Shown one piece after another: positions 1 through 14,597 of a DNA stretch of 64,000 nucleotides. Positions within the stretch are counted from its first letter, which is position 1; the number at the start of each line of letters is the position of its first letter. A program made the position numbers and the translations under genes. This stretch comes from Solwaraspora sp. WMMD791 (GTDB lineage: Bacteria; Actinomycetota; Actinomycetes; Mycobacteriales; Micromonosporaceae), in the NCBI RefSeq assembly GCF_029581195.1, contig NZ_CP120737.1, positions 5,061,001 to 5,125,000 of the forward strand. The letters are read 5' to 3'. The notes beneath the pieces were generated by a model. That model made no database searches. It had not been told where the DNA came from and saw nothing but the letters and a program-made list of their open reading frames with translations.

Positions 1-1016
1 GAAGCCCACTGGAAAGCGCAGCCCGAGTGATCGAACGGTACGAGCCGCAGGGACGGCGGTACTACGGCGGCATCGCAGCGCTCGTCGGCCGAGACGCCAC
101 CGGGGAGCGCACCCTGGACTCGGCCATCCTCATCCGTACCGCCGACATCGCCCCAGACGGGCGGCTTCAGATCGGGGTCGGTGCAACCCTGGTGCGGCAC
201 TCGGAACCGGACGCCGAGGTCGCCGAGACCCATGCCAAGGCCGCCGGGCTGCTCGGTGTCCTGCAGGAACAACCGCCGACAGCATTCGGATCGCACCCGA
301 AGGTCCGCTCCGCGCTGCGCCGCCGCAACGACCGAATCGCGGATTTCTGGCTGCGCGACCACGCTGCCCGGCGGACCGACGCTGCCGGACTGGCCCAGTT
401 GCGGGTGCTAGTGGTCGACGAGGAAGACACCTTCACCGCGATGATCGGCCAACAGCTGAGCGCGCTGGGACTCGTCGTGACGGTGATCCGCTTTGACCAG
501 CCACACGAGCTCACTGGCCACGACCTGGTGCTGCTTGGCCCTGGTCCGGGTGATCCCCGGGACACTAGCGACCCCCGCATCGCAGGGCTGCACAGCAGCG
601 TGGACCTCCTGCTGGCGGTGAGACAGCCCTTCGTCGCCGTCTGCCTGAGTCACCAGGTACTCGGGCAACGCCTCGGCCTCGATCTGGTCCGCCGACGCAA
701 CCCGTACCAGGGTACCCAGCGTGAGATCGACCTGTTCGGTGCCCGCGAGCGAGTGGGCTTCTACAACACGTACGTGCTGCACGGGGACCAAGACGACCTG
801 GCGGTCGACGGGATCGGCCCTGTGCGGCTGAGCCGCGAGCGGAGGACCGGCGAGGTGCACGCGCTGCGCGGCCCCGGTTTCGCCTCAATGCAGTTTCATC
901 CCGAATCAGTGCTGACCCTCGACGGGCTACGGATCACCGCCGAGGCCTTGCGCTGGGCGCTCGACGCCCGGGTGCCGGACGACGCGATGGTCCAGCCAGC
1001 CCCGGGACGACAGTGA
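1..1016 (+). CDS. phzE: Phenazine biosynthesis protein PhzE, 3' part (2-amino-2-desoxyisochorismate synthase)
   Basis: PhzE converts chorismate plus glutamine to 2-amino-2-desoxyisochorismate, the first committed step from chorismate to phenazines. The frame is open from base 3 and runs in from the left edge. The first residues (SPLESAARVIERYEP, then RRYYGG) match the end of the chorismate-binding domain, so the GTG at 27 is internal and most of that N-terminal domain lies outside the window. The rest is the class I glutamine amidotransferase: LLGPGPGDP loop, nucleophile Cys in VCLSHQ, and His/Glu in QFHPES near the end. PhzE is normally about 630 residues, so roughly half is present. phzF follows after 10 bases, as in other phz operons. 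Confidence 0.93.
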   Translation, partial: SPLESAARVIERYEPQGRRYYGGIAALVGRDATGERTLDSAILIRTADIAPDGRLQIGVGATLVRHSEPDAEVAETHAKAAGLLGVLQEQPPTAFGSHPKVRSALRRRNDRIADFWLRDHAARRTDAAGLAQLRVLVVDEEDTFTAMIGQQLSALGLVVTVIRFDQPHELTGHDLVLLGPGPGDPRDTSDPRIAGLHSSVDLLLAVRQPFVAVCLSHQVLGQRLGLDLVRRRNPYQGTQREIDLFGARERVGFYNTYVLHGDQDDLAVDGIGPVRLSRERRTGEVHALRGPGFASMQFHPESVLTLDGLRITAEALRWALDARVPDDAMVQPAPGRQ

Positions 1017-1026
1017 GGAGTCGGCG

Positions 1027-1866
1027 GTGCACGAGTACATGGTGGTGGACGCCTTCGCGAGCAGGCCGCTGGAAGGAAACCCGGTAGCGGTCTTCTTCGA
1101 CGCCGCAGACCTCAGCGGCGCGACAATGCAGCGGATCGCCCGGGAAATGAACCTCTCCGAGGTGACGTTCGTACTGCCGGCGGAAGGGGCAGCGGACGCC
1201 CAGATCAGGATATTTACACCGGTCAACGAGTTGCCCTTCGCTGGACACCCGATCCTCGGGACGGCGGTGGCCCTCGGCCATACTCTGGGCCGACGCGAAC
1301 TACGGCTGGAAACCCGGATGGGTGTCACCCCGGTCGAGATCTCCGGCGTGATGACTGACGGCTTCATGACGATCCGGATGCGTCAGCCGACCCCGACCTG
1401 GCGTGGCTACGAGCATCCGACCGAGGTGCTGGCGGCACTCGGCGTAGAGGTAGCCACAACCCCAGTCGAAGTCTACCACAACGGGCCGCGTCACGTCCTC
1501 GTCGGACTGGAGAGCGTCGCCGCGCTCTCCGCGCTGCGTCCGGACCACCGCGCCCTGGCGGCCCTGCCGGACATGGCTGCCAACTGCTTTGCCGGCTGCG
1601 GTACCCGCTGGCGCAGTCGGATGTTCTCCCCGGCGTACGGGGTGGTCGAGGACGCCGCGACCGGTTCGGCGGCCGGCCCTCTGGCGATCTACCTCGCTCG
1701 GCACGGCCTCGCCCTGTACGGCCAAGAGATCGAGATCCTGCAGGGGGTGGAGATCGGCCGACCCTCGCTGATGCGCGCCGTCGCGCAGGGTGCCGGCGAA
1801 CGGGTCAGTTCGGTATATGTCAGCGGCCACGGGGCGGTCGTCGCCCGCGGCACGATCATGGTTTAG
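1027..1866 (+). CDS. phzF: PhzF, trans-2,3-dihydro-3-hydroxyanthranilate isomerase
   Basis: PhzF isomerises DHHA to the reactive aminoketone that dimerises into the phenazine skeleton. The 279-residue product has the diaminopimelate-epimerase-like two-domain fold length. It carries the N-terminal VVDAFASRPLEGNPVAVF signature and NLSEV with Glu45, the catalytic acid/base of the family. A second hallmark, PFAGHPILGTA, follows, and EDAATGSAAGPLA marks the second half. The GTG start has a GAGGAG ribosome site 6-11 bases upstream, embedded in the end of phzE, so the two genes are probably translationally coupled. phzG follows after 11 bases. Confidence 0.96.
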   Translation: MHEYMVVDAFASRPLEGNPVAVFFDAADLSGATMQRIAREMNLSEVTFVLPAEGAADAQIRIFTPVNELPFAGHPILGTAVALGHTLGRRELRLETRMGVTPVEISGVMTDGFMTIRMRQPTPTWRGYEHPTEVLAALGVEVATTPVEVYHNGPRHVLVGLESVAALSALRPDHRALAALPDMAANCFAGCGTRWRSRMFSPAYGVVEDAATGSAAGPLAIYLARHGLALYGQEIEILQGVEIGRPSLMRAVAQGAGERVSSVYVSGHGAVVARGTIMV

Positions 1867-1877
1867 GTCAGGCAACC

Positions 1878-2516
1878 GTGGACAGCAGCAGCTTCGAATC
1901 GCTTACTGCGGAGATCGACCTCGCCTTCCCCGAGTACTACACCCCGCCGGCCGAGCCGCTGAGCATCGCCGAGCGGTGGCTCGCCACGGCGGTCCGGCTG
2001 GGGGTGCGTGAGCCCCAGTCGATGGCACTGGCCACAGCCGACAAAGCCGGCCGGGTCTCCAACCGGATCGTCGCCGTGTTGAAGAACGGTGCCGAGGGGG
2101 TGCTCTTCACCAGCCACCGGTGCAGCCGCAAGGGGCGCGACATTGCCGCCACCGGTTGGGCCTCCGGCTTGTTCTACTGGCGGGAGCTCGGCCGTCAGCT
2201 GGTCATCTCCGGCCCTGTCAGGCAGGTACCCGACGCGGAGTCCGACGCGCTCTGGGCGGCTCGCGCGGTGCCCCTGCACGCCATGTCGGTGGCCTCCCAG
2301 CAGAGCCTGCCGTTGCCCGACCCGGCCGCGCTGGGGGCGGCTGCTCAGCAGTTGGCCGAGGCCGGGGTAGCGCTTCTGCGGCCGGACCGGTTCGTCGGCT
2401 ACCGCCTCGAACCAGCCGAGGTGGAGTTCTGGTCGGCCAGCCCGGACCGCCTGCACCGCCGGCTGCACTACCACCGCGACGGCGACGACTGGCGCCCCAC
2501 CCGCCTGCAACCCTGA
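1878..2516 (+). CDS. phzG: PhzG, FMN-dependent dihydrophenazine oxidase
   Basis: PhzG is a pyridoxamine-phosphate-oxidase-fold flavoprotein. It oxidises the hexahydro- and tetrahydrophenazine intermediates that arise after PhzF and PhzA/B. The 212-residue product has the usual length. Visible family segments are PQSMALATAD, the FMN-phosphate region NRIVAVLKN followed by FTSHRCSRKG, and the C-terminal part reading FWSASPDRLHRR. The GTG start lies 11 bases after phzF. The gene closes the contiguous phzEFG block, and the next gene is 42 bases away. Confidence 0.93.
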   Translation: MDSSSFESLTAEIDLAFPEYYTPPAEPLSIAERWLATAVRLGVREPQSMALATADKAGRVSNRIVAVLKNGAEGVLFTSHRCSRKGRDIAATGWASGLFYWRELGRQLVISGPVRQVPDAESDALWAARAVPLHAMSVASQQSLPLPDPAALGAAAQQLAEAGVALLRPDRFVGYRLEPAEVEFWSASPDRLHRRLHYHRDGDDWRPTRLQP

Positions 2517-2558: not shown

Positions 2559-3209
2559 ATGACCTTCACCGTCAATCCGAACGTCTCCGTCGTCTACTAC
2601 TCCGCCACCGGCACGGTAGCCGAAATAGCGCGGGAGATCGCGCTGTGGGCGGAGAAGGCCGGCGCGGCGGTCCGGCTGCGCAGGATCAACGAACTCGCCC
2701 CCCGATCGGTGATCGAGGCGAACCCGAGATGGTCGGCTCACGCCGCAGCCACTGTCGACGTCCCAGTCGCCACCGCCGAGGACCTGCTCTGGGCCGACGC
2801 GGTGTTGATGGGGACACCGACTCGGTTCGGCAACATGGCCACCGAGCTCAAACACTTCATCGACTCGCTCGGCGGGGCCTGGCGGCGAGGACTGCTGGCG
2901 GACAAGGTCTACAGCGCATTCACCGCCAGCAGCAGCCCGCACGGCGGCCAGGAGTCGACGCTGCTGGCGCTCACCACCTCCTTCTACCACTTTGGCGGAA
3001 TCGTCGTAGCGCCTGGATACACCGATGCACACAAGCACGCCGACGGCAATCCGTACGGTACGTCGTACTGCACGCAGGGCGGGCGACGCTCGATCGACGA
3101 CGTCACCCGGCAGGCGGCTCGAGTGCAGGCCGAGCGGGTGGTGACGATGTCCCGCCGACTCTGCCTATCGAACCCCGTCGCGCCCTGCCAAGGGGAGGGC
3201 ACGCGATGA
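2559..3209 (+). CDS. WrbA-like NAD(P)H:quinone oxidoreductase (flavodoxin fold)
   Basis: The 216-residue product has the flavodoxin FMN-phosphate loop YYSATGTVAEIAREIA at its N-terminus. The WrbA-type segment GTPTRFGNMATELKHFIDS follows, then the glycine/serine-rich turn TASSSPHGGQES with FYHFGGIVVAPGYTD. WrbA enzymes make two-electron reductions of quinones with FMN and NAD(P)H. In this cluster such an enzyme could keep a phenazine or a quinoid intermediate reduced during tailoring; that role is inference. A strong GGAGGG site precedes the ATG. The TGA overlaps the ATG of the adenylation gene (ATGA), so the two are co-translated and the gene belongs to the tailoring cassette. Confidence 0.85.
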   Translation: MTFTVNPNVSVVYYSATGTVAEIAREIALWAEKAGAAVRLRRINELAPRSVIEANPRWSAHAAATVDVPVATAEDLLWADAVLMGTPTRFGNMATELKHFIDSLGGAWRRGLLADKVYSAFTASSSPHGGQESTLLALTTSFYHFGGIVVAPGYTDAHKHADGNPYGTSYCTQGGRRSIDDVTRQAARVQAERVVTMSRRLCLSNPVAPCQGEGTR

Positions 3210-4768
3210 GTGCCGAACCGGTTGGGGCACCGGTCAACCTCGTTGACGTTTTCGCCCGCACGGTCGCCGCGTACCCGCAGCGGACCGCGCTGGTGGCGGG
3301 AGGCGAGTCGCTGTCGTACAGCGAACTCGACGCCTGGGCCGAGACGGCCCGGCGGGCGCTGCATGCGCGCGGGGTACGGCGAGACGACCGTGTAGCGCTG
3401 CGGATGCCGCCGAGTGCCGAGGCGATCGTGGCCATCCTCGGCATCCTGCGGGCCGGCGCCGCGTACGTACCGCTCGACGTGCGCAACCCCGCCGCCCGTA
3501 ACCGCTTGATCGTCGAGGACAGCGAGGTGGCCGCCCTGGTCGGTGACCCGGACGCTTGCCCCGTCGACGGCCGCCCAGTGCTCACCGGGGCAGAGCTGCG
3601 GCGGCTACGGGACGAGCCGTTGGCGCGGCTGCGGCACTCGTCACCCGCACCAGGGGAGACGGCGTACGTCATCTATACCTCCGGCACCACCGGCACTCCC
3701 AAGGGGGTACGCATCCAGCACAGCGCGGTGACCGCGCTACTGGCCGCCGCTGGACAGCGTTTCGCGTTCACCGCTGACGACCGCTGGCTGCTCTTCCACT
3801 CCCTTGCGTTTGACGTCTCGGTCTGGGAGATGTGGGGCGCGTTCACCACCGGTGCCCGGTTGGTGGTGCTGCCCTACTGGAGCACGCGTTCCCCGGAGAA
3901 GTGCCTGGACACCGTCATCGACGAGGGCGTCTCGGTGCTGAACGTCACCCCTACCGCGTTCAACGGGCTGGCTGGTGCGGCGCTGCGTGCGCAGGCCGAC
4001 CTGCCCGCCCTGCGGTACGTCGTCTTTGCGGGCGAGAAGCTGACCCCTGCCGTGCTCCGGCCGTGGGCGAAACGGTTCGGGCTGAGCCGGCCCATGCTGG
4101 TGAACATGTACGGGATAACAGAGGTCACCGTGCACGCCACCTTCCACCAGGTTACCGAGGACGACCTCGACGGCGATGTCTCGGTGGTCGGTCGGCCTCT
4201 TCCCGGTTTCACCCATCGGATCCGTACCCCAGACGGCCAGGACGCCGACATCGGTGAGGAGGGGGTTCTATGGCTCGCCGGCCCCCAGCTCAGCGCGGGC
4301 TACCTGAACCGACCCGATCTGAACGCCGAACGCTTCGCCCTGCTGCCCTCTCCGGACGGTGGCCCGCCGCAGCGGTACTACCGCTCCGGCGACTTGGTCA
4401 GAGTCCGAGCCGACGGCAACCTGGTCTACCGCGGCAGGGAGGACCTACAGGTCAAACTCCGTGGCCACCGAATCGAACTGAGCGACGTGGAGGCCGCCGT
4501 CGCCGATCATCCCGCTGTGCTTTCGGCGGTGGTCTGGGTACGGCGGTTCGGCCCGGAGGACGAACGGCTGGTCTGCGCCTACGTCCCAACCGAAGCCGGA
4601 TCGCGAGTCGAGGTCCCGGCGCTGCGTGAGCACGTCCGACGAGTGCTGCCGCAGTACATGCGGCCAGCAGCCTACCAGGAACTGCCGGCGTTGCCCCGAA
4701 CCATCAACGGAAAGGTCGACCGGGACACGGTCGCTCGCGCCTGGGAACGGCAGAAGGGAGAACGGTGA
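3206..4768 (+). CDS. Free-standing NRPS-type adenylation enzyme
   Basis: This 520-residue protein is a single complete adenylation domain that activates an acid as its adenylate and should load it onto the next gene's carrier protein. Core motifs are present in order: A3 YVIYTSGTTGTPKG (about 154-167), A4 FDVSVWEMW, A5 NMYGITEVTVHAT, A7 YRSGDLVR, A8 LQVKLRGHRIELSDVEAAV, and A10 INGKVDR with the catalytic Lys near 503. Reading the pocket by eye against GrsA gives D-V-W-N-V-A-M-V-H-K. That is close to the threonine pattern (DFWNxGMVHK) with two changes, so a small amino acid such as Thr, Ser, Ala or 2-aminobutyrate is my guess. No condensation or thiolation domain is attached. The ATG was chosen because it overlaps the upstream stop; the same frame is open further upstream but only as a shadow. 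A role in activating phenazine dicarboxylate is a less likely alternative. Confidence 0.88.
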   Translation: MSAEPVGAPVNLVDVFARTVAAYPQRTALVAGGESLSYSELDAWAETARRALHARGVRRDDRVALRMPPSAEAIVAILGILRAGAAYVPLDVRNPAARNRLIVEDSEVAALVGDPDACPVDGRPVLTGAELRRLRDEPLARLRHSSPAPGETAYVIYTSGTTGTPKGVRIQHSAVTALLAAAGQRFAFTADDRWLLFHSLAFDVSVWEMWGAFTTGARLVVLPYWSTRSPEKCLDTVIDEGVSVLNVTPTAFNGLAGAALRAQADLPALRYVVFAGEKLTPAVLRPWAKRFGLSRPMLVNMYGITEVTVHATFHQVTEDDLDGDVSVVGRPLPGFTHRIRTPDGQDADIGEEGVLWLAGPQLSAGYLNRPDLNAERFALLPSPDGGPPQRYYRSGDLVRVRADGNLVYRGREDLQVKLRGHRIELSDVEAAVADHPAVLSAVVWVRRFGPEDERLVCAYVPTEAGSRVEVPALREHVRRVLPQYMRPAAYQELPALPRTINGKVDRDTVARAWERQKGER

Positions 4769-5019
4769 TGACCGAGACCGAAGACCGCAATGCGGAGGTG
4801 GAGCGGCAGACCGTCGAATGGGTCGCCGAAATGCTGGGTGAGCCAGAGCTCTCCGCCCAGGACAACTTCATCGACCTCGGTGGGCACTCAATTCTGGCGC
4901 TGCGGCTCTGCCAGTACGCCAAGGAACAATTCGGCGCAGAGTACGACCTGATGCTCCTGTTCGAGCAGAACCTCGCGACCGCAGCGGCGGAGCTGGCCTC
5001 CCGTGTTCCCCCGCCCTGA
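4768..5019 (+). CDS. Free-standing peptidyl/acyl carrier protein
   Basis: This 83-residue carrier protein has the phosphopantetheine site DLGGHSILALRL, with the modified Ser at about position 41, followed by the typical helix II-III region ending in FEQNLATAAAELA. It presumably receives the aminoacyl group made by the adenylation enzyme encoded just upstream and presents it to the KAS III-like transferase and the orphan N-methyltransferase. The ATG at 4768 overlaps the upstream TGA by one base and is preceded by AGGGAG; a GTG one codon earlier is also possible. No thioesterase or condensation domain is encoded nearby, so release must use another enzyme. Confidence 0.9.
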   Translation: MTETEDRNAEVERQTVEWVAEMLGEPELSAQDNFIDLGGHSILALRLCQYAKEQFGAEYDLMLLFEQNLATAAAELASRVPPP

Positions 5020-5069
5020 CCGAGCCACCCCACCCCGACGGCACGGACCGCTCACGAGGAGACGCGCGC

Positions 5070-6098
5070 ATGGCCCGACCCACCGTGGATCTCGGAATAG
5101 CTAGCTTTGGTATCGCCCTCGGCCAAGAACAGGACGTGGCCGCCACCGCCGCCCGCTACGTCGACAACCCCGAGCGGGTGACGAACTGGGGCTACCGCAC
5201 CTACCACCGGGCGGCGGAGGGGGTGCACGCCACCGACCTCGCGACGACGGCCGCGCAGCAGGCCATCGACCGACTCGGTATCGAAGCGGACTCGATCGAC
5301 CTGGTGGTGTTCACCAACTCGGACGTCCCAGAGTATCTCTACTGGGACGGAGCCGCAGCGCTCGCCCGCAACCTAAAGATCGGGCAGGTGCAGACCCTGC
5401 TGCTTGACGAGGGATGTGCAGCGGGCGTGCACGGGTTGTACTACGTCGCTGCGACGATGGCGATGCAGCCCGAGGTCTCCACTGCCCTCTTCGTAGCGGT
5501 CAACCGGGTCAGCGAGTTCCACCGCAACCGGATGAACGTGGTTAACGCCGTGATCAGCGACGGTGCCGGAGCGGCCATCGTACGGCGCGGGCATCCGGCG
5601 AACCGATGGCTGGCGACCGAGCAGTTCACCGACCCCGAGCACTGTGATCTGCTGCGCTTGGACTTCGGCGGTGCGGTGCAGCCGTTGCCTCGGCCGGGCT
5701 GGTCGAGCACCACCGCGCCGGGTGGACACGCCGAGGTGCGGGCCAGGTTTGGCAACGACCCTGCAGTGCTCCGGTCATATCTGCAGAGCCGATACGCGCG
5801 CATGCTGGATGCGATCGACGGTGCCTGCACACGAGCCGGGTTGACCCGAGACGAAATCGCGCATCTGATTTACCTCAACGACAGCGCTAGCAGCATCGCC
5901 GCGATCGCGGAGCCGCTCGGGATCCCGCTTGCCCGCACCAACGCCGCGCTCGCGCCGGAGCATGGCCACATGGGCGGCGCGGACCAACTCGTCTCGCTAG
6001 CGGTGCAGCTGGACAGCGGCGAACTGCGTCCCGGCGAGGTGGTGGCGCTCTGCGGCATCTCGGCCGGCCGCTGGTCCGCCACCCTGATCCGGGTGTGA
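5070..6098 (+). CDS. KAS III (FabH)-like ketosynthase/acyltransferase with altered catalytic residues
   Basis: The 342-residue product has the thiolase fold of 3-oxoacyl-ACP synthase III. The active-site Cys116 is clear in LLDEGCAAGVHGLYY, and the C-terminal GISAGRWSATLIRV is the usual glycine-rich end. By-eye alignment to FabH shows that the HQAN His is replaced by Asn270 (IYLNDSAS) and the GNTS Asn by His300 (EHGHMGG), so the two are effectively exchanged. KAS III relatives in antibiotic clusters (CerJ, ChlB3 type) move acyl groups from a carrier protein to oxygen or nitrogen instead of forming C-C bonds. Its place right after the carrier protein suggests it transfers the aminoacyl group to the phenazine. 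C-C extension of a phenazine thioester, as I recall proposed for saphenic acid-type phenazines, is the alternative. GAGGAG precedes the ATG. Confidence 0.85.
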   Translation: MARPTVDLGIASFGIALGQEQDVAATAARYVDNPERVTNWGYRTYHRAAEGVHATDLATTAAQQAIDRLGIEADSIDLVVFTNSDVPEYLYWDGAAALARNLKIGQVQTLLLDEGCAAGVHGLYYVAATMAMQPEVSTALFVAVNRVSEFHRNRMNVVNAVISDGAGAAIVRRGHPANRWLATEQFTDPEHCDLLRLDFGGAVQPLPRPGWSSTTAPGGHAEVRARFGNDPAVLRSYLQSRYARMLDAIDGACTRAGLTRDEIAHLIYLNDSASSIAAIAEPLGIPLARTNAALAPEHGHMGGADQLVSLAVQLDSGELRPGEVVALCGISAGRWSATLIRV

Positions 6099-6161
6099 CC
6101 GCTACCCCGAGCGTCCGTGCACGCCGCCTGACCAGTGTCTTCGAGTTGGAGCGAGTCAAAC

Positions 6162-7262
6162 GTGCCTACAGCCGAACTAGATCTCCTCGACCTGCCCCGC
6201 GACGTCAATCCTGACCCCGACGAGTACGTCCGCGCCGCGATGCGGTGGCATTTCCAGCCCGAGACCGGAGCGCCGTTCTGGCTGGCACGCGCCGCCACCC
6301 TGCACTTCGATCCCCTGGCGGATGTGAAGTCCTACGCCGACCTGCGGCTCTTCCCGAACGTCGTCGCCGAGCTGCGCACCGCCCGCGTAGCGGATCTGAT
6401 CCCGCGCGGGTACGGCCACCGTCCCGAGGTGATCGGCGTCTTCGACAGCGGCGGCACCACTGGACTGCCCAAGCGAGTGGTGCTGATGCGTGACTGGCTG
6501 GATCGGATGCTCGCCGCCAGCAACGCGAACCTCGACGCGCACGGGTTCCCACGCTCGGTCGACTGGCTGGGGGTGGTTCCAACCGGCCCGCATATCGTTG
6601 GGGAGTATTTCCGACGGTCGGCGAGTACCCACGGTCGGTACGGATTCTGTGTCGACATGGACCCGCGGTGGGTCCGGCGGCAACTTGCCCAGGGCCACCG
6701 CGAGGTTGCCGACGCGTACGCCGAACACGTCGTCGACCAGGTCGAGCATGTGCTGCGTACCCAGGAGATCGGCGTGATGACGGTTACGCCAACGCTTCTG
6801 GAACGGATGGCCCGCCGTGAGGAGTTGGTGGAGTTGATCCGTCGGCAGGTACGCGCCATCCGCTGGGGTGGCACCCAGCTCGACCCGGATTCGCGGCAGC
6901 TCTACCGAACCCAGGTATTCCCGGACGCTGTGCTCTGTGGCAACTACGGCAGCACGATGGTGCTCGGAATGGCCGGCGAACGTCCCGGCCTGCCCGCCGA
7001 GGCGGCGTGCGTGTTCGACGGGCTCGCTCCGTACATCACATTCGAGGTGGTGCGCTCCGAGGATCTGACGCCGGTGCCATACGGCGAGCGGGGTCGGGTG
7101 CTTGCTCACCATGTCAGCAAGTCGTTCCTGTTGCCGAACAACCTGGAACGCGACGAGGCGACCCGGGTGGCGGCCCGCCCCGGGCAGGTCGGCGACGCGG
7201 TGGCCGACATCGCCCCGGTGAGCACCTTCGAGGACGAACCCGTCATCGAGGGGGTCTACTGA
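6162..7262 (+). CDS. LuxE/EhpF-like acyl-activating enzyme
   Basis: This 366-residue protein resembles LuxE acyl-protein synthetases and EhpF, an atypical ANL enzyme of D-alanylgriseoluteic acid biosynthesis. The nucleotide-binding loop is DSGGTTGLPKRVV (about 95-107). Later elements are IRWGGTQLDPDS, CGNYGSTMVLGM and the C-terminal DAVADIAPVSTFEDEP. As established for EhpF/EhpG and for LuxE/LuxC, the pair activates a carboxylate and reduces it to an aldehyde. Here the likely substrate is the 6-carboxylate of phenazine-1,6-dicarboxylic acid (inference). I chose the GTG at 6162 because GGAGCGA lies about 8 bases upstream; a GTG at 6135 has no visible ribosome site. The TGA overlaps the ATG of the reductase gene. 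Confidence 0.82.
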   Translation: MPTAELDLLDLPRDVNPDPDEYVRAAMRWHFQPETGAPFWLARAATLHFDPLADVKSYADLRLFPNVVAELRTARVADLIPRGYGHRPEVIGVFDSGGTTGLPKRVVLMRDWLDRMLAASNANLDAHGFPRSVDWLGVVPTGPHIVGEYFRRSASTHGRYGFCVDMDPRWVRRQLAQGHREVADAYAEHVVDQVEHVLRTQEIGVMTVTPTLLERMARREELVELIRRQVRAIRWGGTQLDPDSRQLYRTQVFPDAVLCGNYGSTMVLGMAGERPGLPAEAACVFDGLAPYITFEVVRSEDLTPVPYGERGRVLAHHVSKSFLLPNNLERDEATRVAARPGQVGDAVADIAPVSTFEDEPVIEGVY

Positions 7263-8668
7263 TGACTTCCCGTGTCCCACCCGCAAAGATCGACGCGCTC
7301 GGCCCGGAGGGGTCGTACCGCACACGACGCCGGCAAACGCTCACCGACGTGGCCGGCGAGGTCGTCGCCGAACTGAGCTTGGTCCCACCGCTCTACATCG
7401 AGCGTACCGTTGCCGCACTGCGTCGGGCCCCGGCGCGACCGGCACAGGAGCAGGCCGCGCTGGTCGCCAAGGCAGCTGGGATGTTCGCCTCGGCCACCCT
7501 CGCAGACCAGTCGGTGGATCAGTACCAGTACGCGGTGAGCCGGGTCGGCGGCATACCGATCTCAGTAGTCCGCGCCGCCACCCGGACCACCGCCGAGCGG
7601 CTAGCCCAGGTGGCAGAGACGGTCGAGTGCGCCCGTCCGGCCGGCACGGTCAGGGACTGGCGGGCTCCGGCCACCGCCTCCGGCAGCGGGGTGTGGCTGC
7701 GCCGAGGCGAAGTCCTCGCGGTGAATGCCGCTGGCAACCATCCCGGGACGCACAGTCTATGGCCGGAGGCGTTCGCCCTCGGCTACCGGGTCGCGGTACG
7801 CCCCTCACGACGCGACCCGTACACCCCGCGCCGGCTCATCGCGGCGCTGCGCGCTGCGGGTCTCGACGACGACCAGGCTGCGCTGCTCCCCACCGACCAC
7901 GAACACGCGGGGACCCTGGTCCGCAGCGCCGACCTGAGCATGGTCTACGGCGACGACGCGGTGGTACGTCGGTACGTCGGCGACCCGACGGTGCTTCCTC
8001 AGGGACCGGGCCGGTCGAAGATCCTGCTCACCGCAGAGGCGGACTGGCGGCGGCACCTGGGCACCATCATCGACTCAATCGCAGGCAACGCCGGAACCGG
8101 TTGTGTCAACGCCACCGCGATCCTGGTCGAGGGCGATCCCGCGCCGCTCTGCGCCGAGCTGGCCGCGCGGCTGGCCGCGTTCCGCGCGTACCGGCCGGAG
8201 GACGACCGGGCCGTACTGCCAGTGCAGCCCAGCGGTGCGGCGCGGGCGATCGAACGGCATCTGCTCCGCCGGGCCTCCGGCACCCGCGCCTGGCTCGGCG
8301 GCGACGGCGTCGCCGAGGATCTCGGCGACGGCAGCGCGGCACTGCGTCCCGCGCTGCACCAGCTCGACCGGGCGGACGCCCCGCAGGCTGCCGTGGAGCT
8401 GCCCTTTCCATGCGTCTGGGTGGCACCGTGGCGCCGGGCAGACGGGGTCGGTCCACTGCGTAACAGCTTGGTCCTCACTGCGTTCACCCACGACACCGAG
8501 CTGATCGAGCGGCTGGTGACCGAGCCGACCATCGGCAACGTCCACGTCGGCGACCATCCCACGTCCCAGATGACAGCCGGCCTGCCCCACGACGGCTACC
8601 TCGCCGAGTTTCTGATGCGCAGCAAAACGGTCATCCACGACCCACCCCGCTCCGGAGGCCTGCCATGA
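7262..8668 (+). CDS. LuxC/EhpG-like acyl reductase (aldehyde-dehydrogenase fold)
   Basis: This 468-residue protein is close to the usual LuxC length. It carries the nucleotide-binding and catalytic features of acyl-CoA reductases: VLAVNAAGNHPGTHSLWPEA in the middle and the active-site Cys281 in GNAGTGCVNATAILVEG. LuxC accepts an acyl group from LuxE and reduces the thioester with NADPH to an aldehyde. Paired with the LuxE/EhpF-like gene, it should turn one phenazine carboxylate into an aldehyde, which another reductase could take to the hydroxymethyl of griseoluteic-acid-type compounds. The start ATG overlaps the upstream TGA by one base and the end overlaps the next ATG by four, so translation is coupled on both sides. 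Confidence 0.84.
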   Translation: MTSRVPPAKIDALGPEGSYRTRRRQTLTDVAGEVVAELSLVPPLYIERTVAALRRAPARPAQEQAALVAKAAGMFASATLADQSVDQYQYAVSRVGGIPISVVRAATRTTAERLAQVAETVECARPAGTVRDWRAPATASGSGVWLRRGEVLAVNAAGNHPGTHSLWPEAFALGYRVAVRPSRRDPYTPRRLIAALRAAGLDDDQAALLPTDHEHAGTLVRSADLSMVYGDDAVVRRYVGDPTVLPQGPGRSKILLTAEADWRRHLGTIIDSIAGNAGTGCVNATAILVEGDPAPLCAELAARLAAFRAYRPEDDRAVLPVQPSGAARAIERHLLRRASGTRAWLGGDGVAEDLGDGSAALRPALHQLDRADAPQAAVELPFPCVWVAPWRRADGVGPLRNSLVLTAFTHDTELIERLVTEPTIGNVHVGDHPTSQMTAGLPHDGYLAEFLMRSKTVIHDPPRSGGLP

Positions 8669-10164
8669 TCGAGTTCGGTACCGCCCAGCGCCCATTCCGG
8701 CCGTCGACGAACGGTGCCAGCCGGGTGGAGGCCGCCGCACCGGGCATGGTCGAACGCCTGCTGGCGCGCCACGACCAGGTCGCGGCCGCCACCGTCGTAC
8801 CAGGCGAGCGTGGACCGGTCGCATACGTGGTGCCCGTCGCCGAGATCAACAGCGGCGGCGAGGAAGTGATCCACCGGCAACTCGACGAGTGGCAGCAGAT
8901 TTACGACCGGCTCTACCGATCCTCCGCGGGCTCGCGGTTCGGCGAAAATTTTGACGGCTGGATCAGCAGCTACACCCGCCAACCCATCGCGCTCGACGAG
9001 ATGCGCGAGTGGCGGGCGGCGACCGTCTCCCGGGTCCGGGCTCTCGAGCCGCGTCGGGTGCTGGAAATCGGTGTCGGCAGCGGGCTGCTCCTGGCCCACC
9101 TCGCCGCCGACTGCGAGGCGTACTGGGGCACCGACCTCTCCTCGGCCGCTGTGGAGGAGCTCCGTCGGCAGGTCGCTGCCGATGCCGACATCGCCGACCG
9201 AGTCGAGCTGCGCGCCCAGGGGGCCGACCGAATCGACGGGCTGCCGACCGGGTACTTCGACACCATCGTGATCAACTCGGTCGTCCAACTCTTCCCGCAC
9301 CAGCGTTACCTCAGCGCTGTGATAAACCGGGCGCTTACCCTGCTGGTCGACGGGGGGGCGATCTTCCTCGGCGACATCCGGGACCTACGAGCGGCACCGG
9401 TCCTGCACGCCGCTGTCGCCGTCGGCCGCTCCCGCACCACCGAACCAGCGGTCGTCCAGCACCTCGCCCGAAAGGGCGAGAACCTGGATGAGGAACTGCT
9501 GGTACGCCCAGAGTTCTTCACCATGCTGCCGGCCGCCAACCCGGCTGTCGCCGCCGTCGACGTGCGACTCAAGGCTGGTCGATACCACAACGAACTGTCC
9601 CGCTATCGGTACGACGTGGTCTTGCACAAGGCACCTCGGGCCGTCGTCGACCTCTCGGAGAACCCCGTCTGGCGCTGGGAAGTCGACATCGACGACGTCG
9701 ACGCACTCACGTCTGGTCTGACCGGCACCGCCGTGCGGGTGCTGCACATCCCCAACGCGCGGGTGGCGGCCGAAACGGCGGTCTGGCGAGCCCTGCGCCA
9801 AGGCAACCTGCCGTATGCCCGAGAGCTGCTGGCTGGCGGCGTCCGAGGCCTCGACCCGGAAATCTTCGGCGAGCAGGTGAGCTCCGCGACCGGGTTCGCC
9901 TGCGTCCTGACCCTCTGCCCGGAGCACGTCGACCACTTCGAGGCCGTGCTCCTGCCCCCAGGTTCCCCGGACGCGACGGTCGGCGGGACGTACCGGACAC
10001 CAGCAATCCTGGATCAGCCGCTCGCGATGGTACCGGCAGCAGCTCACCGCGCAGACCTGCTCGCCACCCGCCTGGCCGAGTGGCTGCGGGCGCACCTGCC
10101 CGCTGACGCCGGCCCCATCGACGTCGTGGTCGTCGACGAACTCCCGACACCGGCTGCCCATTGA
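8665..10164 (+). CDS. Orphan NRPS N-methyltransferase (excised A8-MT-A9 region)
   Basis: The 499-residue product looks like the N-methyltransferase insertion of an NRPS adenylation domain, cut free as its own gene. Residues 28-58 (VERLLARHDQVAAATVVP to VAYVVP) match the small adenylation subdomain just after motif A8. Residues 75-335 form the methyltransferase, with DEWQQIYDRLY, NFDGWISSY, SAM motif VLEIGVGSGLLLAHLA (132-147) and INSVVQLFPHQRYL, ending in LSRYRYDVVLHK. The C-terminal part returns to the adenylation subdomain (LAEWLRAHLP to VVVDELPTP) but stops just where motif A10, with its catalytic lysine, should begin. It therefore cannot adenylate by itself and should act in trans on the aminoacyl carrier protein. 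Direct methylation of the phenazine is a weaker alternative. The ATG overlaps the LuxC-like stop by four bases. Confidence 0.85.
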   Translation: MIEFGTAQRPFRPSTNGASRVEAAAPGMVERLLARHDQVAAATVVPGERGPVAYVVPVAEINSGGEEVIHRQLDEWQQIYDRLYRSSAGSRFGENFDGWISSYTRQPIALDEMREWRAATVSRVRALEPRRVLEIGVGSGLLLAHLAADCEAYWGTDLSSAAVEELRRQVAADADIADRVELRAQGADRIDGLPTGYFDTIVINSVVQLFPHQRYLSAVINRALTLLVDGGAIFLGDIRDLRAAPVLHAAVAVGRSRTTEPAVVQHLARKGENLDEELLVRPEFFTMLPAANPAVAAVDVRLKAGRYHNELSRYRYDVVLHKAPRAVVDLSENPVWRWEVDIDDVDALTSGLTGTAVRVLHIPNARVAAETAVWRALRQGNLPYARELLAGGVRGLDPEIFGEQVSSATGFACVLTLCPEHVDHFEAVLLPPGSPDATVGGTYRTPAILDQPLAMVPAAAHRADLLATRLAEWLRAHLPADAGPIDVVVVDELPTPAAH

Positions 10165-10196: not shown

Positions 10197-10685
10197 GTGT
10201 CCGCCAACGGCTCGAAGTGCGACCCGAACGACGAGACCTCGGTGCGTGCGCACAACCGCACCATCGTCGAGCGCTACATGAACACTCGGGGCCAAGATCG
10301 GCTCCGGCGCCACCTGCTGTTCGCCGAGGACGGCACCGGTGGGCTCTGGACCACCGAAAGCGGTGCGCCCATCGTCATAAGTGGACGAAATCGGCTCGGT
10401 GAGCATGCGGTCTGGTCCCTGCGCTGTTTTCCCGACTGGGTATGGACTAACATCGAAATCTATGACACTCAGGATCCGGAACGTTTCTGGGTGGAGTGCG
10501 ACGGTGAGGGCAAGATTCTCTTTCCGGGTTACCCGGAGGGGCACTACCAGAACCACTTCCTGCACTTCTTCCGTTTCGAGAACGGGTGGATCAAGCAGCA
10601 GCGCGAGTTCATGAATCCATGCCAGCAGTTCCGCGCCCTGGGCATCGCGGTGCCCGAGATCGTCCGGGAGGGGATACCCACCTGA
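10197..10685 (+). CDS. phzB: PhzB (PhzA/B-type), phenazine ring-condensation enzyme
   Basis: PhzA/B proteins are small SnoaL-like enzymes that catalyse the condensation of two PhzF-derived aminoketones into the tricyclic phenazine precursor. The 162-residue sequence matches PhzB along its length: RGQDRLRRHLLFAEDGTGG, EHAVWSLRCFPDW, FWVECDGEGKILFPGYPEG and the C-terminal REFMNPCQQFRALGI to VREGIPT. Only one copy is visible, as in other actinomycete clusters; pseudomonads have a tandem phzA-phzB. The GTG start has a strong AGGAAGGA site. The gene is separated from phzEFG by about 7.6 kb of tailoring genes, which is unlike the compact phzABCDEFG order. Confidence 0.95.
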   Translation: MSANGSKCDPNDETSVRAHNRTIVERYMNTRGQDRLRRHLLFAEDGTGGLWTTESGAPIVISGRNRLGEHAVWSLRCFPDWVWTNIEIYDTQDPERFWVECDGEGKILFPGYPEGHYQNHFLHFFRFENGWIKQQREFMNPCQQFRALGIAVPEIVREGIPT

Positions 10686-10724: not shown

Positions 10725-11957
10725 GTGCCACCTGACGTTGTCACCGTAGCCCATCAGCAGCCCGAATGGCCCGACCCAGACCAGGCCCGACAGGTCCGAA
10801 ACTTCCTGCGCACCTGCCCGGTCCTGGTCGGCCCCGACGACGTGCTCGCGCTCCGTGCCTTTCTTGGCCGCGTCGCCGCTGGCGAGGCGTACGTCCTCCA
10901 GGCCGGAGACTGCGCCGAGCCCACCGAGGAATGCGACGCCACTCACGTTCGTCGCAAGATGGAGCTCATCAACCTGATGGCGGCGACGATGAGGGAGCGG
11001 CTGCCTTGCCCGGTGCTGCGGGTCGGTCGGATCGCCGGGCAGTTCACCAAACCCCGGTCCAACCCCACCGAGACAGTCGGTGGGCTCACCCTGCCAGCGT
11101 ACCGTGGGCACTTGGTCAATGGGCCAAATCCTGACGCGACGAGCCGGCAGCCGGATCCACTGCGGATCATCTCCGGCTACGCGGCGGCCGGCGGCGGCAT
11201 GAGCCACCTGGGCTGGCCCCGGCCCGAGCCGCTGACCTGGTCCACGATCGAATCTGCGGTCTGGAGTAGTCACGAGGCGCTGTTGCTCGACTACGAAATG
11301 CCGCTGACCCGGGAGATGCCCGACGGGCGGCGGTGGCTCGGTTCCACCCACTGGCCGTGGATCGGTAACCGTACTCGCCAACTGGACGGGGCCCATGTCG
11401 CGCTGATGTCCAGCATCGTCAACCCCGTCGCCTGCAAAGTCGGCCCGGGGATGGATCCGACGGAGCTCGTAGCACTCTGCGACCGGCTCGACCCCCGCCG
11501 CGAACCCGGACGCCTGACGCTGATCACCCGTATGGGGGCTGACCGGATCGCCAACGAACTACCCCGGCTGGTCCAGCGGGTACGCGCGGCCGGCCACCCG
11601 GTGATCTGGCTCTGCGATCCGATGCACGGCAACACGGTTCTCGCGACAGGCGGTCGCAAGACTCGCACGCTGACGGCGATGACCCGGGAGGTGCAGCTCT
11701 TCACCGAGGCAGTCGCCCAGGCCGGAGGTGTCGCCGGCGGCCTGCACCTGGAGGTGACCCCGCAGGACGTCACCGAGTGTGTCGCCAGTGATAGCGAGTT
11801 GGCGCAGGTCGCTGGTCCCTACACCAGCTATTGCGACCCCCGACTCAACCCGCAGCAGGCGGTCGCCCTGGTGCAGGCCTGGTCCCCGGCGCGCCGACTG
11901 GCGCCGGCAACGGTCGGACCAAACAACACCACCCACCCCACCAGCGACCTTCGATGA
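10725..11957 (+). CDS. phzC: PhzC, class II (plant-type) DAHP synthase
   Basis: PhzC makes 3-deoxy-D-arabino-heptulosonate 7-phosphate from erythrose 4-phosphate and phosphoenolpyruvate. It feeds the shikimate pathway for phenazine production, typically escaping feedback control. The 410-residue protein has the class II signatures LQAGDCAEPTEE, RVGRIAGQFTKPRSNPTE, HWPWIGNRTRQ, NPVACKVGPGM, ITRMGADRI, WLCDPMHGNT and the metal-binding GGLHLEVTPQDVTEC. The GTG start is preceded by GTGAGGA 8 bases upstream. It follows phzB by 39 bases and the downstream methyltransferase starts 10 bases later, so these genes form the tail of the forward operon. Confidence 0.95.
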   Translation: MPPDVVTVAHQQPEWPDPDQARQVRNFLRTCPVLVGPDDVLALRAFLGRVAAGEAYVLQAGDCAEPTEECDATHVRRKMELINLMAATMRERLPCPVLRVGRIAGQFTKPRSNPTETVGGLTLPAYRGHLVNGPNPDATSRQPDPLRIISGYAAAGGGMSHLGWPRPEPLTWSTIESAVWSSHEALLLDYEMPLTREMPDGRRWLGSTHWPWIGNRTRQLDGAHVALMSSIVNPVACKVGPGMDPTELVALCDRLDPRREPGRLTLITRMGADRIANELPRLVQRVRAAGHPVIWLCDPMHGNTVLATGGRKTRTLTAMTREVQLFTEAVAQAGGVAGGLHLEVTPQDVTECVASDSELAQVAGPYTSYCDPRLNPQQAVALVQAWSPARRLAPATVGPNNTTHPTSDLR

Positions 11958-11967
11958 AGGAGAAGAA

Positions 11968-12657
11968 ATGGCTGGCTACGACTTCCAATCGGCCGACTTC
12001 GACGCCGCATACCGTGGCCAAGACCTGCTGCCCGGGGCGGGCATCACCCGCGTGCCCTGGGACATCGCCGAGGCACAGTCGGCGGTGATCGAAATGGAGC
12101 GCGCTGGATGGTTCCGCGGCCGGGTGCTGGATGTCGGGTGCGGACTCGGTGACAACGCGATCTTCCTGGCAGGGCGCGGATATGAGACGACCGCCGTGGA
12201 CGCCGCCCCGAGCGCAATCGAGGAGGCACGCCGCCGTGCCGGTGATCGACCGGTTGAGTTCGCGATTGCCGACGCGACGCACCTGGCCGGGTACGAGGGC
12301 GGCTTCGACACGGCGCTGGACAGCGCCTTCTACCACACCCTCACCGCCGAGGACCGTTCTCGATACCTCATCGCCCTGCACCGGGCGACCCGGGCCGGCG
12401 CTCACCTGAACATGCTTTGCTTCGCAGACGTACCCGGAGGGATGCCGGCCCCACTCGCGGTCACCGAGGCGGACGTGCGGACAGGGCTGACCGCAGGGGG
12501 CTGGCGGGTCGTGCACATGTCCCGTGCCGAGTACGCCGGGCTGGCCGCGCCTATGCAGACGTTCTTCGAGCGGCTCGGCCGACATCCGAAGCTCGACCAG
12601 CGGGGCCGGACCCGCCTGCCGGTGTGGCTAATCCGGGCCGAGCGGGTCGAGGCGTGA
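11968..12657 (+). CDS. Class I SAM-dependent methyltransferase
   Basis: The 229-residue product has SAM-binding motif I VLDVGCGLGDNAIFLAGRG, the acidic loop TTAVDAAPSAIEEA and motif IV region FDTALDSAFYHTL. It resembles small-molecule O- or N-methyltransferases of the DUF/thiopurine-like class. As part of the phz transcript it is a candidate for methylating a phenazine hydroxyl or ring nitrogen; griseoluteic-acid-type compounds carry a methoxy group, but no hydroxylase dedicated to making that phenol is visible here. An AAGGAGAAG site precedes the ATG. The TGA overlaps the GTG of the next gene. Confidence 0.85.
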   Translation: MAGYDFQSADFDAAYRGQDLLPGAGITRVPWDIAEAQSAVIEMERAGWFRGRVLDVGCGLGDNAIFLAGRGYETTAVDAAPSAIEEARRRAGDRPVEFAIADATHLAGYEGGFDTALDSAFYHTLTAEDRSRYLIALHRATRAGAHLNMLCFADVPGGMPAPLAVTEADVRTGLTAGGWRVVHMSRAEYAGLAAPMQTFFERLGRHPKLDQRGRTRLPVWLIRAERVEA

Positions 12658-13031
12658 ACGCGAGGGGCGTGGGCCGTCGCGCGTTCCCGGTCATCTACAC
12701 CGACCAAGTGTCGGCGCTGGCGGCCTTCTACGAGTTGCTCGGATTCGTCAGGCACATCCAACATCCTCCGGCGGGTCCCGTACGCTTCGTGGCTTTGCGC
12801 CGGGACGCGGCCGAGGTGGGCGTCGCCGCAACCGACGGTACGGCGCGACGGGCAGGTTCTGGTCCTGTCGAAATGTTCGTCTTCGTCGACGCGGTCGACG
12901 AACTGGTTGACGAGTTGCGTGCGCGGGGCGTGCCGGTACTGCGCGAACCGGCGGACACGCCCTGGGGTGAACGGGTAGCCCAGGTCGGTGACCCGGATGG
13001 CAACCCGGTCGCCCTCGCGGCCCCTGCCTGA
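12654..13031 (+). CDS. Glyoxalase/bleomycin-resistance-fold protein, EhpR-like
   Basis: This 125-residue vicinal-oxygen-chelate protein shows the duplicated beta-alpha-beta-beta-beta pattern: VIYTDQVSALAAFYELLGF at the start and a C-terminal repeat ending VAQVGDPDGNPVALAAPA. The metal-binding His/Glu set of true glyoxalases is not obvious, which fits a binding role. EhpR of the griseoluteic acid cluster has this fold and size and gives self-resistance by binding the phenazine. The position at the end of the phz transcript with a four-base GTGA overlap makes a sequestration protein the best guess; a ring-cleaving dioxygenase is less likely at this size. Confidence 0.8.
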   Translation: MNARGVGRRAFPVIYTDQVSALAAFYELLGFVRHIQHPPAGPVRFVALRRDAAEVGVAATDGTARRAGSGPVEMFVFVDAVDELVDELRARGVPVLREPADTPWGERVAQVGDPDGNPVALAAPA

Positions 13032-13097: not shown

Positions 13098-14597
13098 TCA
13101 GCCCTCGGCCGGAACCGGCTCTTCGGCGGTCTGTGCCGGAGAGCCGGGGGGCTCGGCTGGCCGCGCGGTCATCAGAAGACACGCCACGGCGCCGACCAGC
13201 AGCACCGCGAGTAGTAGGTAGAACGCGGCGGCAGCGGCGTCCGCGAGGTCCTGCGGCGGCAGTCCGTCTCCGGCTCCGAACACCCCGGCCGGCTCCGCCG
13301 TACCTGTGAGCTGGGCCTGCAACAGAACGCCAACTGCAGCGCTGCCCAGAACGCTACCGACCTGGCGGACCGTGTTGTACGTGCCGGAGGCGACCCCCAT
13401 CAGCGGGCCGGGCATGCCGCTCATGGCGACGTTCGCCATGGCGGAGAAGCCACCGCCGGTGCCTAGACCCGCCACGAAGAGACCAAGCACCACCCACGAC
13501 AGGCTCACGCCCGGCCGGGAGGCTGCGGCCAGGATCCCGATCCCCGTGGCGAAGAGCAGAAATGAGGTCAGCACCACCCAGCGGCCGCTGATCCGGTCGG
13601 AGAGCACCCCGGCGATCGGACCCGCGACGATCCCGGAGACCGCCATCGCCACCAGGGTCAGCCCGGTGTCCCGGGCGGACATCCCGAGCACGGACTGGAG
13701 GAAGAGGGACAGCGGAAGGTACATCCCGGTCAATGCGAACGCGATCGAGACCGCCGCGATCGAGGCACCGCTGAAGTTGCGCCGCCGGAAGACCGTCAGC
13801 GGCATGAGCGGGTCGTTCGAACCGGCCCGCTGCCACCAGGCGAAGACCGCCAACAGCAGCACCCCGACGACGATCAGGCCGGTGATCGTGACTGGGCCGA
13901 AGACCCGCCCCCAGCCGTAGCGATCGCCGTTCTGCAACCCGAATACCAGCGAGAAGAGACCCAGAGCGGAGAGCAAGGTGCCGACGAGGTCGAACCGCCG
14001 CTGGCGGCGCGGCTGCCCACCAGGCACTAGCAGGACCGTCAGCACCACCCCGAGCAGCCCAATGGGCAAGTTGATCAGAAAGATCCACTGCCAGCCGCCT
14101 GCAGCGACCAGGAAACCCCCAGCGAGCGGCCCCACGATGCTCGCCAGCCCGGCCACCGCGCCCCACGCGCCGAGCGCAGCACCCCGTCGGTTCTCGGGAA
14201 ACAACGTGCCGATGAACGCCATCGTCTGCGGTGCCATCAGCGCGGCGCCGAGGCCCTGAACGGTGCGGGCGGCGATCAGCTCCGTGGCGCTATTGGCCAG
14301 CCCGCAGAAGAGCGACGCGCTAGTGAAAACCACCATGCCGGCCAGGAAGACCGGCTTGCGCCCGAGTCGGTCACCCAGCCTGCCGGCAAAGAGCAACGGG
14401 ACCGCATACGCGAGCAGATACGTGCTGTTGACCCAGACAATCTCGTGTAGACCGGCCGACAGGTCGATGAGCATATCGGGAATGGCCACGTTCACGATGG
14501 TGATGTCCATCATGATCAAGAAAAACCCGATGCAGAGCGCCGAAAGAGCGGCCCAAGGATTCGTCCTGCAGATGGCAGGGCGCGCGGCCGCGCTCAT
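13098..14597 (-). CDS. MFS drug exporter, DHA2 (14-TM) family
   Basis: The 499-residue membrane protein has the EmrB/QacA-type N-terminus (ALSALCIGFFLIMMDITIVN), the loop motif LLFAGRLGDRLGRKPVFLAG and the motif C-like AGLASIVGPLAGGFLV. The hydrophobicity pattern fits 14 membrane helices. DHA2 transporters export drugs by proton antiport. Beside a phenazine cluster this is the likely product exporter. The gene lies on the reverse strand, converging on the glyoxalase gene with 67 bases between them, and its ATG overlaps the stop of the oxidase gene upstream (ATGA). The exporter and oxidase therefore form a two-gene operon. Confidence 0.9.
   Translation of the reverse strand: MSAAARPAICRTNPWAALSALCIGFFLIMMDITIVNVAIPDMLIDLSAGLHEIVWVNSTYLLAYAVPLLFAGRLGDRLGRKPVFLAGMVVFTSASLFCGLANSATELIAARTVQGLGAALMAPQTMAFIGTLFPENRRGAALGAWGAVAGLASIVGPLAGGFLVAAGGWQWIFLINLPIGLLGVVLTVLLVPGGQPRRQRRFDLVGTLLSALGLFSLVFGLQNGDRYGWGRVFGPVTITGLIVVGVLLLAVFAWWQRAGSNDPLMPLTVFRRRNFSGASIAAVSIAFALTGMYLPLSLFLQSVLGMSARDTGLTLVAMAVSGIVAGPIAGVLSDRISGRWVVLTSFLLFATGIGILAAASRPGVSLSWVVLGLFVAGLGTGGGFSAMANVAMSGMPGPLMGVASGTYNTVRQVGSVLGSAAVGVLLQAQLTGTAEPAGVFGAGDGLPPQDLADAAAAAFYLLLAVLLVGAVACLLMTARPAEPPGSPAQTAEEPVPAEG

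Follow-up and report, generated by a model that had tools for sequence, protein, structure and literature searches.

Which compound does a phenazine gene cluster make when genes for acid reduction and for the chemistry of a carrier-bound amino acid are set in its middle? This question is raised by a locus of Solwaraspora sp. WMMD791 that begins about 3.8 kb upstream of the stretch of 64,000 nucleotides analysed here (the window; positions 5061001-5125000 of a single-contig genome of 6.93 Mb, NZ_CP120737.1) and runs into its first part. The best reading of the gene content is an actinobacterial variant of the ehp-type phenazine pathway, and the predicted product, with a probability of about 0.7, is an N-methylaminoacyl griseoluteate-type phenazine. 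The ehp operon leads to phenazine-1,6-dicarboxylic acid and then to D-alanylgriseoluteic acid (excerpts of PMC3175449 and PMC11350110).

The homologous locus of Pantoea agglomerans ASB05 (NZ_CP046724.1) served as the ehp reference. A tblastn search of plasmids with the ketoacyl-ACP synthase III (KAS III)-like protein of the window matched 18 records, four of which were P. agglomerans. The gene order in ASB05 is VOC, phzB, phzD, phzE, phzF, phzG, AMP-binding, aldehyde dehydrogenase, methyltransferase, MFS, SDR, hypothetical, AMP-binding, carrier, and KAS III; the letters ehpH and ehpK to ehpO were set by this order, ehpF and ehpJ are anchored by PMC3175449 or a PDB name, and no gene is assigned to ehpI. 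All 14 genes from phzB to KAS III have homologues in the Solwaraspora locus at 27-59% identity (blastp), with the genes of the phenazine-1,6-dicarboxylate core (phzB, D, E, F, and G) at 41-59% to their ehp counterparts. The initial annotation, made from the sequence of the window, had proposed a griseoluteic-acid-type scaffold with a carrier-loaded aminoacyl group, and the comparison supports both parts.

The same annotation had described seven co-directional genes between phzG and phzB, most of them joined by overlaps or very short gaps. This arrangement is confirmed: all seven, from WrbA to the methyltransferase of non-ribosomal peptide synthetase (NRPS) type, are open on the + strand in the order given, with spacings of -4, -4, 50, 36, -1, and -4 nt and then 32 nt before phzB, and the identities assigned to them are borne out by family and PDB matches. 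When the adjoining upstream 20-kb stretch (L001, with its own numbering) is included, the run proves longer than had been noted. It comprises 17 co-directional genes, from the short-chain dehydrogenase/reductase (SDR) at L001:16220 to the end of the VOC gene at window position 13031, with a largest gap of at most 88 nt, a spacing that depends on the start codons chosen in this analysis. We infer from this spacing that the run is one transcript. The G+C content is about 69% across the first 16 kb of the window. In order, the run contains:

L001:16220 (start), + strand: SDR, 32% identical to the ehp SDR.
L001:17190, + strand: hydroxylase of the acyl-CoA-dehydrogenase fold, EhpL-like (28.5% to EhpL; best NCBIfam model HsaA, under its cut-off).
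L001, + strand: phzD (PF00857).
3..1016, + strand: 3' part of phzE (gene start L001:19079), with GATase and chorismate-binding domains; 42% to ehp PhzE, 573 aa.
1027..1866, + strand: phzF isomerase (PF02567, E 1.4e-75; TIGR00654 above cut-off).
1878..2516, + strand: phzG FMN-dependent oxidase (NF038138 phena_PhzG, 296 bits, cut-off 270).
2559..3209, + strand: WrbA-like NAD(P)H:quinone oxidoreductase (NF002999 and TIGR01755 above cut-off).
3206..4768, + strand: free-standing amino-acid adenylation enzyme in the EhpM position (TIGR01733, 388 bits, cut-off 317).
4765..5019, + strand: free carrier protein in the EhpN position (PF00550; serine of LGGHS present in the alignment).
5070..6098, + strand: predicted KAS III-like acyltransferase in the EhpO position (PF08541/PF08545; best PDB match ChlB3, 7eqi).
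6135..7262, + strand: EhpF-like acyl-adenylating enzyme (PDB EhpF 3hgu/3l2k, E 1e-75; PF00501 only sub-threshold).
7262..8668, + strand: EhpG-like aldehyde dehydrogenase/acyl reductase (PF00171; 31% to EhpG over 457 aa, 56% to a Burkholderia homologue).
8665..10164, + strand: stand-alone 'Asub-MT-Asub' methyltransferase (PF08242; PDB 5wmm).
10197..10685, + strand: phzB (PF03284, E 5e-84; 59-61% to ehp and Burkholderia PhzB).
10725..11957, + strand: phzC class II DAHP synthase (PF01474, E 2e-127).
11968..12657, + strand: class I methyltransferase using S-adenosylmethionine (SAM), EhpH-like (36.5% to EhpH over 219 aa).
12669..13031, + strand: VOC/glyoxalase-fold protein (PF00903, E 1.6e-11; weak PDB matches including TioX and a mitomycin-binding protein).

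The adenylation enzyme, carrier, and KAS III-like protein form a trio that recurs elsewhere. When genomes of the order were searched with the KAS III-like protein, 15 of 298 matched at E 1e-30, its own included, and two of the other 14 carry the phenazine cassette (one was examined as a 10.2 kb contig only). In the sample of the class, 6 of 394 matched at E 1e-80, again with its own, and the cassette is present in two of the five others. A scan of named genomes with EhpF found trio homologues at 54% identity or more in six of the best 80 of 418 loci. After removal of duplicates there are at least nine distinct cassette clusters. The stand-alone methyltransferase is present in six of them, namely those of the window, Streptomyces flaveus, Nocardiopsis halophila, Actinopolyspora mortivallis, and two further genomes (G211 and G883); these six span at least four genera, with G211 counted as Actinopolyspora. 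The clusters of Streptomyces sp. G-G2, S. bambusae, and WAC06614 are without it. Since the trio recurs beside EhpF, EhpG, and phenazine genes in eight further clusters, with the methyltransferase in five and WrbA in seven, the gene set is not a chance neighbourhood. A phzC homologue was found in eight of the nine loci; the Nocardiopsis locus ends shortly after EhpG. The comparison loci mostly reach at most 10 kb per side, a range in which the absence of distal genes is not proven.

Parts of the cassette are also found apart from it. EhpF and EhpG homologues co-occur in all of the best 80 of 418 loci, and within the fetched flanks 53 of these 80 have no match to phzB, D, E, F, or G, with two more showing only a PhzE match of about 30%. 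Therefore, this pair is probably used well beyond phenazines. Relatives of the KAS III-like protein (43-47%) stand next to an adenylation-type sequence without phenazine matches in five loci (L026, L027, where the two are about 5 kb apart, L142, L143, and L144), and adenylation/KAS III pairs may act on other scaffolds as well.

The stand-alone methyltransferase (METHYLTRANSFERASE) aligns to PDB 5wmm over residues 24-495 (E 4e-86). We take 5wmm to be TioS, a backbone N-methylating M domain inside an interrupted adenylation domain. The AlphaFold model (five sequences) has a mean predicted local distance difference test (pLDDT) score of 77, with 57 residues below 50, and Foldseek places 5wmm first for it (484 columns, 38% identity, E 5e-44; next best 1e-8). 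From the alignment and the model, the protein looks like a detached M domain that has kept both halves of the A subdomain and was excised from an interrupted NRPS adenylation domain, and thus the orphan NRPS N-methyltransferase of the initial annotation finds its relative. At E 1e-50, 9 of 396 genomes of the phylum match, its own included. The remaining eight genomes account for 15 matches, all inside open frames that span 706-10444 residues, the lengths that NRPS-embedded domains would give; the open frame is a proxy for such embedding, and the two shortest frames (706 and 1034) are near the starts of contigs. The stand-alone form is therefore rare in this sample. No description of an actinomycete phenazine cluster with a stand-alone methyltransferase was found in a search that reached few subscription journals, so that its absence is not proven.

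The protein might instead methylate the phenazine ring or a hydroxyl, or be a non-functional remnant, and so have no part in the chemistry of a carrier-bound amino acid. It lacks the adenylation core that normally houses an M domain, and four aligned homologues are only 47-50% identical to it. On the other hand, it has been kept in six clusters from at least four genera, the SAM motif is conserved in six of six homologues, the sequence matching both A-subdomain halves is retained, and the other relatives found sit in long NRPS-sized frames. We therefore regard action on the ring or loss of function as unlikely, and N-methylation of the carrier-bound amino acid as the preferred role.

Which amino acid would be loaded can be approached through the adenylation enzyme. 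Its nearest solved proteins are 5n9w (E 2e-204; Thr1) and 3vnq (E 7e-174; CytC1). The L-Thr-activating Thr1 is 5N9X (excerpt of PMC6668435), and 5N9W and 5N9X are grouped together (excerpt of PMC11267755). The ten pocket positions, placed by hand using GrsA motifs, read DVWNVAMVHK and contain the amino-group Asp and the A10 Lys. Eight of the ten are as in Thr1 (DFWNVGMVHK), the differences being F236V and G301A. In a comparison of Thr1 and ObiF1, glycines line the cavity for the beta-hydroxyl (PMC6668435, in the part available). Since this cavity is glycine-lined in Thr1 and residue 301 is Ala here, Thr appears plausible but not secure, and it is possible that the substrate is another small amino acid related to Thr. 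No halogenase was recognised in the 17-gene run, in which no search with halogenase models was made, and no paper that combines N-methylthreonine with phenazine was found in the literature searched.

The transfer step would fall to the KAS III-like protein. In an alignment with ChlB3 its Cys116 is kept, and this Cys, together with the His (His300) and Asp (Asp305) of the motif GHxGxAD, is invariant in all 11 aligned proteins, including EhpO and the Burkholderia protein. The column of the FabH catalytic His is occupied by Leu in eight of the 11; the remaining three have Phe, Ile, or Thr. The column of the FabH Asn is His (300) throughout, with the Asp (305) five residues further. Since the FabH His and Asn are not kept and the Cys is, the protein looks like an acyltransferase and not a condensing enzyme, and it is predicted as such. 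ChlB3 and CerJ are precedents for KAS III-like acyltransferases.

A different use of the same fold would be the extension of a phenazine carboxyl through a C-C bond with malonyl, with the carrier holding a polyketide intermediate and a product like saphenic acid, esmeraldin, or streptophenazine. The KAS III fold and the free carrier protein would suit such a route, and phenazine-polyketide hybrids exist in the streptophenazines (excerpt of PMC10221052). However, the catalytic His and Asn of FabH are not kept, a loss for which a condensing KAS III was dropped; the best solved match is ChlB3 and not a FabH, the enzyme that partners the carrier is of the amino-acid adenylation class and has the Asp that binds the amino group, and no other ketosynthase was noticed in the 17-gene run. 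Extension by malonyl is therefore very unlikely.

The preferred N-methylaminoacyl pathway, in which the reactions, the amino acid, and the attachment site are deduced from the observed gene content, homology, active-site substitutions, and recurrence, can be potentially described as follows. The enzymes PhzB to PhzG would form phenazine-1,6-dicarboxylic acid, and the EhpF and EhpG homologues would reduce one of its carboxyls to the level of an aldehyde and an alcohol. To give a core of griseoluteic-acid type, the hydroxylase, SDR, and EhpH-like methyltransferase would add its hydroxyl and methoxy substituents. The free adenylation enzyme would load a small Thr-type amino acid onto the free carrier protein, where the stand-alone methyltransferase would N-methylate it in trans. 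Via a Cys thioester, the KAS III-like protein would transfer the N-methylaminoacyl moiety either to the hydroxymethyl of the phenazine, forming an ester, or to a reduced nitrogen of the ring, forming an amide, and WrbA may supply the reduced phenazine acceptor. Griseolutein T is a hydroxyacetyl dihydrophenazine that gives griseolutein A upon oxidation and acyl shift to the hydroxymethyl oxygen, and it is taken as the true metabolite (both in the excerpt of PMC12380601). Since griseolutein T is thus an N-acylated dihydrophenazine, a reductase beside the acylation trio would fit the supply of a reduced acceptor. WrbA was found in eight of the nine cassettes.

In three Streptomyces clusters, the place of the methyltransferase between EhpG and phzC is taken by a CreE-like FAD enzyme and a nitrosuccinate lyase (L038 12588-15982; L046 13039-16733; L048 11864-15438). 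The FAD enzyme belongs to PF13454, and the S. bambusae copy matches PDB 8cp2 (E 2e-199); the label 'CreE-like' rests on the family and the neighbouring gene. The S. bambusae lyase scores 719 bits with NF052556 (cut-off 650) and has PDB CreD 5xny as its solved relative. CreE and CreD together make nitrous acid from aspartate (excerpt of PMC10477347). In the window, L001, and the five other methyltransferase loci, genes of CreE/CreD type gave no match at E 1e-5. Their presence in phenazine clusters suggests that a phenazine undergoes N-N bond formation or diazo chemistry; the passages obtained from literature on nitrosuccinate and phenazines concerned other matters. The swap is accompanied by changes in the adenylation pocket: residue 331 is His in all six clusters with the methyltransferase vs Leu in all three without, and residue 301 is Ala (five) or Asp (one) vs Gly (three).

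The three Streptomyces with CreE/CreD-type genes form one clade in a concatenated tree of five proteins (support 100) and in all five single trees. Its neighbour is S. flaveus in the trees of the adenylation enzyme (0.99), KAS III (0.92), and EhpF (0.67), as well as in the concatenated one (63); in the EhpG and PhzF trees the clade does not stand beside S. flaveus, and the support of deeper nodes is weak (38-86). One tentative and rather doubtful scheme would treat the cassette as a plug-in module for acylation, in which one slot is exchangeable and serves to edit the amino nitrogen, by N-methylation in trans or by diazotisation/nitrosation with nitrous acid. In this scheme a dihydrophenazine made by WrbA would be N-acylated by the KAS III-like protein, giving a redox-gated prodrug that would release or shift its aminoacyl group on oxidation, like griseolutein T.

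Several observations weigh against the N-methylaminoacyl, ehp-type pathway. The members of the trio share little identity with their counterparts (27% with EhpM, 36% over 50 aa with EhpN, and 28% with EhpO), and no homologue of EhpR was found by blastp (E 0.01) or tblastn. The pocket is not canonical for Thr, with Val at 236 and Ala at 301, and Thr itself is doubtful as the substrate. EhpO has a His immediately ahead of the column of the FabH His, which makes its comparison with FabH less clean. The placing of the parts of the methyltransferase is not settled because the model superposes on 5wmm with a root-mean-square deviation of 10.1 and has its 57 residues of pLDDT below 50. The split at residue 331 counts only once, since the three Streptomyces form one clade and thus one event. 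WrbA is not tied to acylation alone, because it was not found in the 20 kb examined of G883 and, of the 74 EhpF loci that are without the trio (best 80 of 418 loci), 10 have a WrbA-like match. Lastly, the window cluster is without a small protein of about 94 residues, with no Pfam match, that is found in the other eight.

This last point could mean that the cluster has decayed and makes a simpler phenazine only, the more so as a flavin reductase seen in five of the nine clusters is also missing. However, the remaining genes in the run all have open reading frames, the genome contains a distant homologue of the small gene at another site, and the two Actinopolyspora-type loci and G883 are likewise without the flavin reductase in the stretches searched. 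Decay is thus quite improbable, and an intact ehp-type variant remains the preferred reading.

As to the two genes themselves, the small gene lies mostly between phzE and phzF (e.g. L035 3843-4124) and is missing at window positions 1016-1027. A hypothetical gene between phzE and phzF may be a core phenazine gene (PMC11278526). The homologue elsewhere in the same genome is 44% identical and lies at C1:884670. A second phenazine locus at that position was considered and rejected, as only SDR-like, KAS-like, and small-gene matches are present there; no genome-wide search for phz genes was made. The flavin reductase is HsaB/FerA/HpaC-like and stands between phzG and WrbA (L035 5800-6318; L036, L038, L046, and L048). 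It is a likely partner of the EhpL-like hydroxylase; the stretches of the window, Actinopolyspora, G211, and G883 gave no match to it.

A hydroxy acid in place of the amino acid, as in griseolutein A or T, is highly improbable as the acyl group. In its favour, the Streptomyces griseoluteins carry hydroxyacetyl (excerpt of PMC12380601), and in two Burkholderia loci whose KAS III is 49% identical, a HAD-IIIC protein and carrier proteins replace the adenylation enzyme. However, the Solwaraspora enzyme belongs to the amino-acid class of adenylation enzymes, and no homologue of this HAD-IIIC protein was found in the window or L001, for which reason the hydroxyacyl route of the Burkholderia loci was dropped. 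In these loci (Burkholderia ubonensis plasmid pMSMB2035, L018 4077-20781, and L060) the adenylation slot holds the HAD-IIIC protein, two PF00550-type carriers, and a ketosynthase. The HAD-IIIC protein is presumably FkbH-like, and the Burkholderia phenazine cluster is a possible hydroxyacyl counterpart of the aminoacyl pathway.

Three genes flank the run:

L001:14744-15727: LysR regulator, before the run.
13098..14597, - strand: DHA2 MFS exporter, EhpJ-like (TIGR00711, 279 bits, cut-off 230; 31% to EhpJ).
14594..16060, - strand: FAD oxidase of berberine bridge enzyme (BBE) type (48.5% to the FAD oxidase of the Burkholderia cluster; 60% to a homologue beside the Actinopolyspora cluster).

The best NCBIfam model for the BBE-type oxidase is BagK/FevA1 (409 bits vs a cut-off of 800), and homologues occur in related clusters. 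Within the run, the EhpH-like enzyme is a probable O-methyltransferase of the phenazine ring, and the VOC/glyoxalase-fold protein is a possible binding or resistance protein. Its identification with EhpR was rejected as unsupported by sequence, since none of its 18 PDB matches to E 0.1 is named EhpR.

The locus points to a family of N-methylaminoacyl phenazine antibiotics in actinomycetes that is likely undescribed. It also offers a natural case of an NRPS tailoring domain that seemingly acts on a free carrier protein as an enzyme in its own right, which would be useful for engineering. With the swap of methylation and nitrous-acid genes in sister clusters, it becomes testable whether one acylation module delivers differently edited amino acids.

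Compared with known systems, the methyltransferase shares with the A-M-A protein 5wmm the M domain and both A-subdomain halves; here these form a separate protein of 499 residues without the adenylation core. Thr1 and CytC1 are the closest solved relatives of the adenylation enzyme, which differs from Thr1 at residues 236 and 301. The Streptomyces griseoluteins combine a griseoluteic-acid core with a small acyl group, as is proposed here, theirs being hydroxyacetyl; the excerpt of PMC12380601 gives no biosynthetic gene cluster for them. Pelagiomicin A was considered as a further possible relative of the predicted product. In the xpz pathway of Xenorhabdus szentirmaii, XpzS, a 3-oxoacyl-ACP synthase-like protein, is reported to join a carrier-bound aminoacyl group to phenazines (excerpt of PMC10098953), a likeness drawn from the description only. 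Therefore, the chemistry of the adenylation/carrier/KAS III trio is known in kind. The initial annotation knew of no described cluster with this set, which was too strong: the core with EhpF, EhpG, adenylation enzyme, carrier, and KAS III follows the ehp plan, and aminoacyl transfer by XpzS has been reported. That claim stands in part: a combination of these genes with WrbA and the stand-alone methyltransferase was not found described in the literature searched. With the ehp cluster the locus shares the phenazine core, EhpF, EhpG, EhpH, the MFS exporter, the SDR, the EhpL-like hydroxylase, and the trio; its additions are WrbA, the stand-alone methyltransferase, phzC inside the run, and the BBE oxidase. 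The pathway thus belongs with ehp and xpz to a kind already known, from which it departs in its tailoring set, and since the adenylation pocket (DVWNVAMVHK) differs from that of EhpM (DFWSVCTVFK), the locus is filed as a variant and not as a D-alanylgriseoluteic acid cluster.

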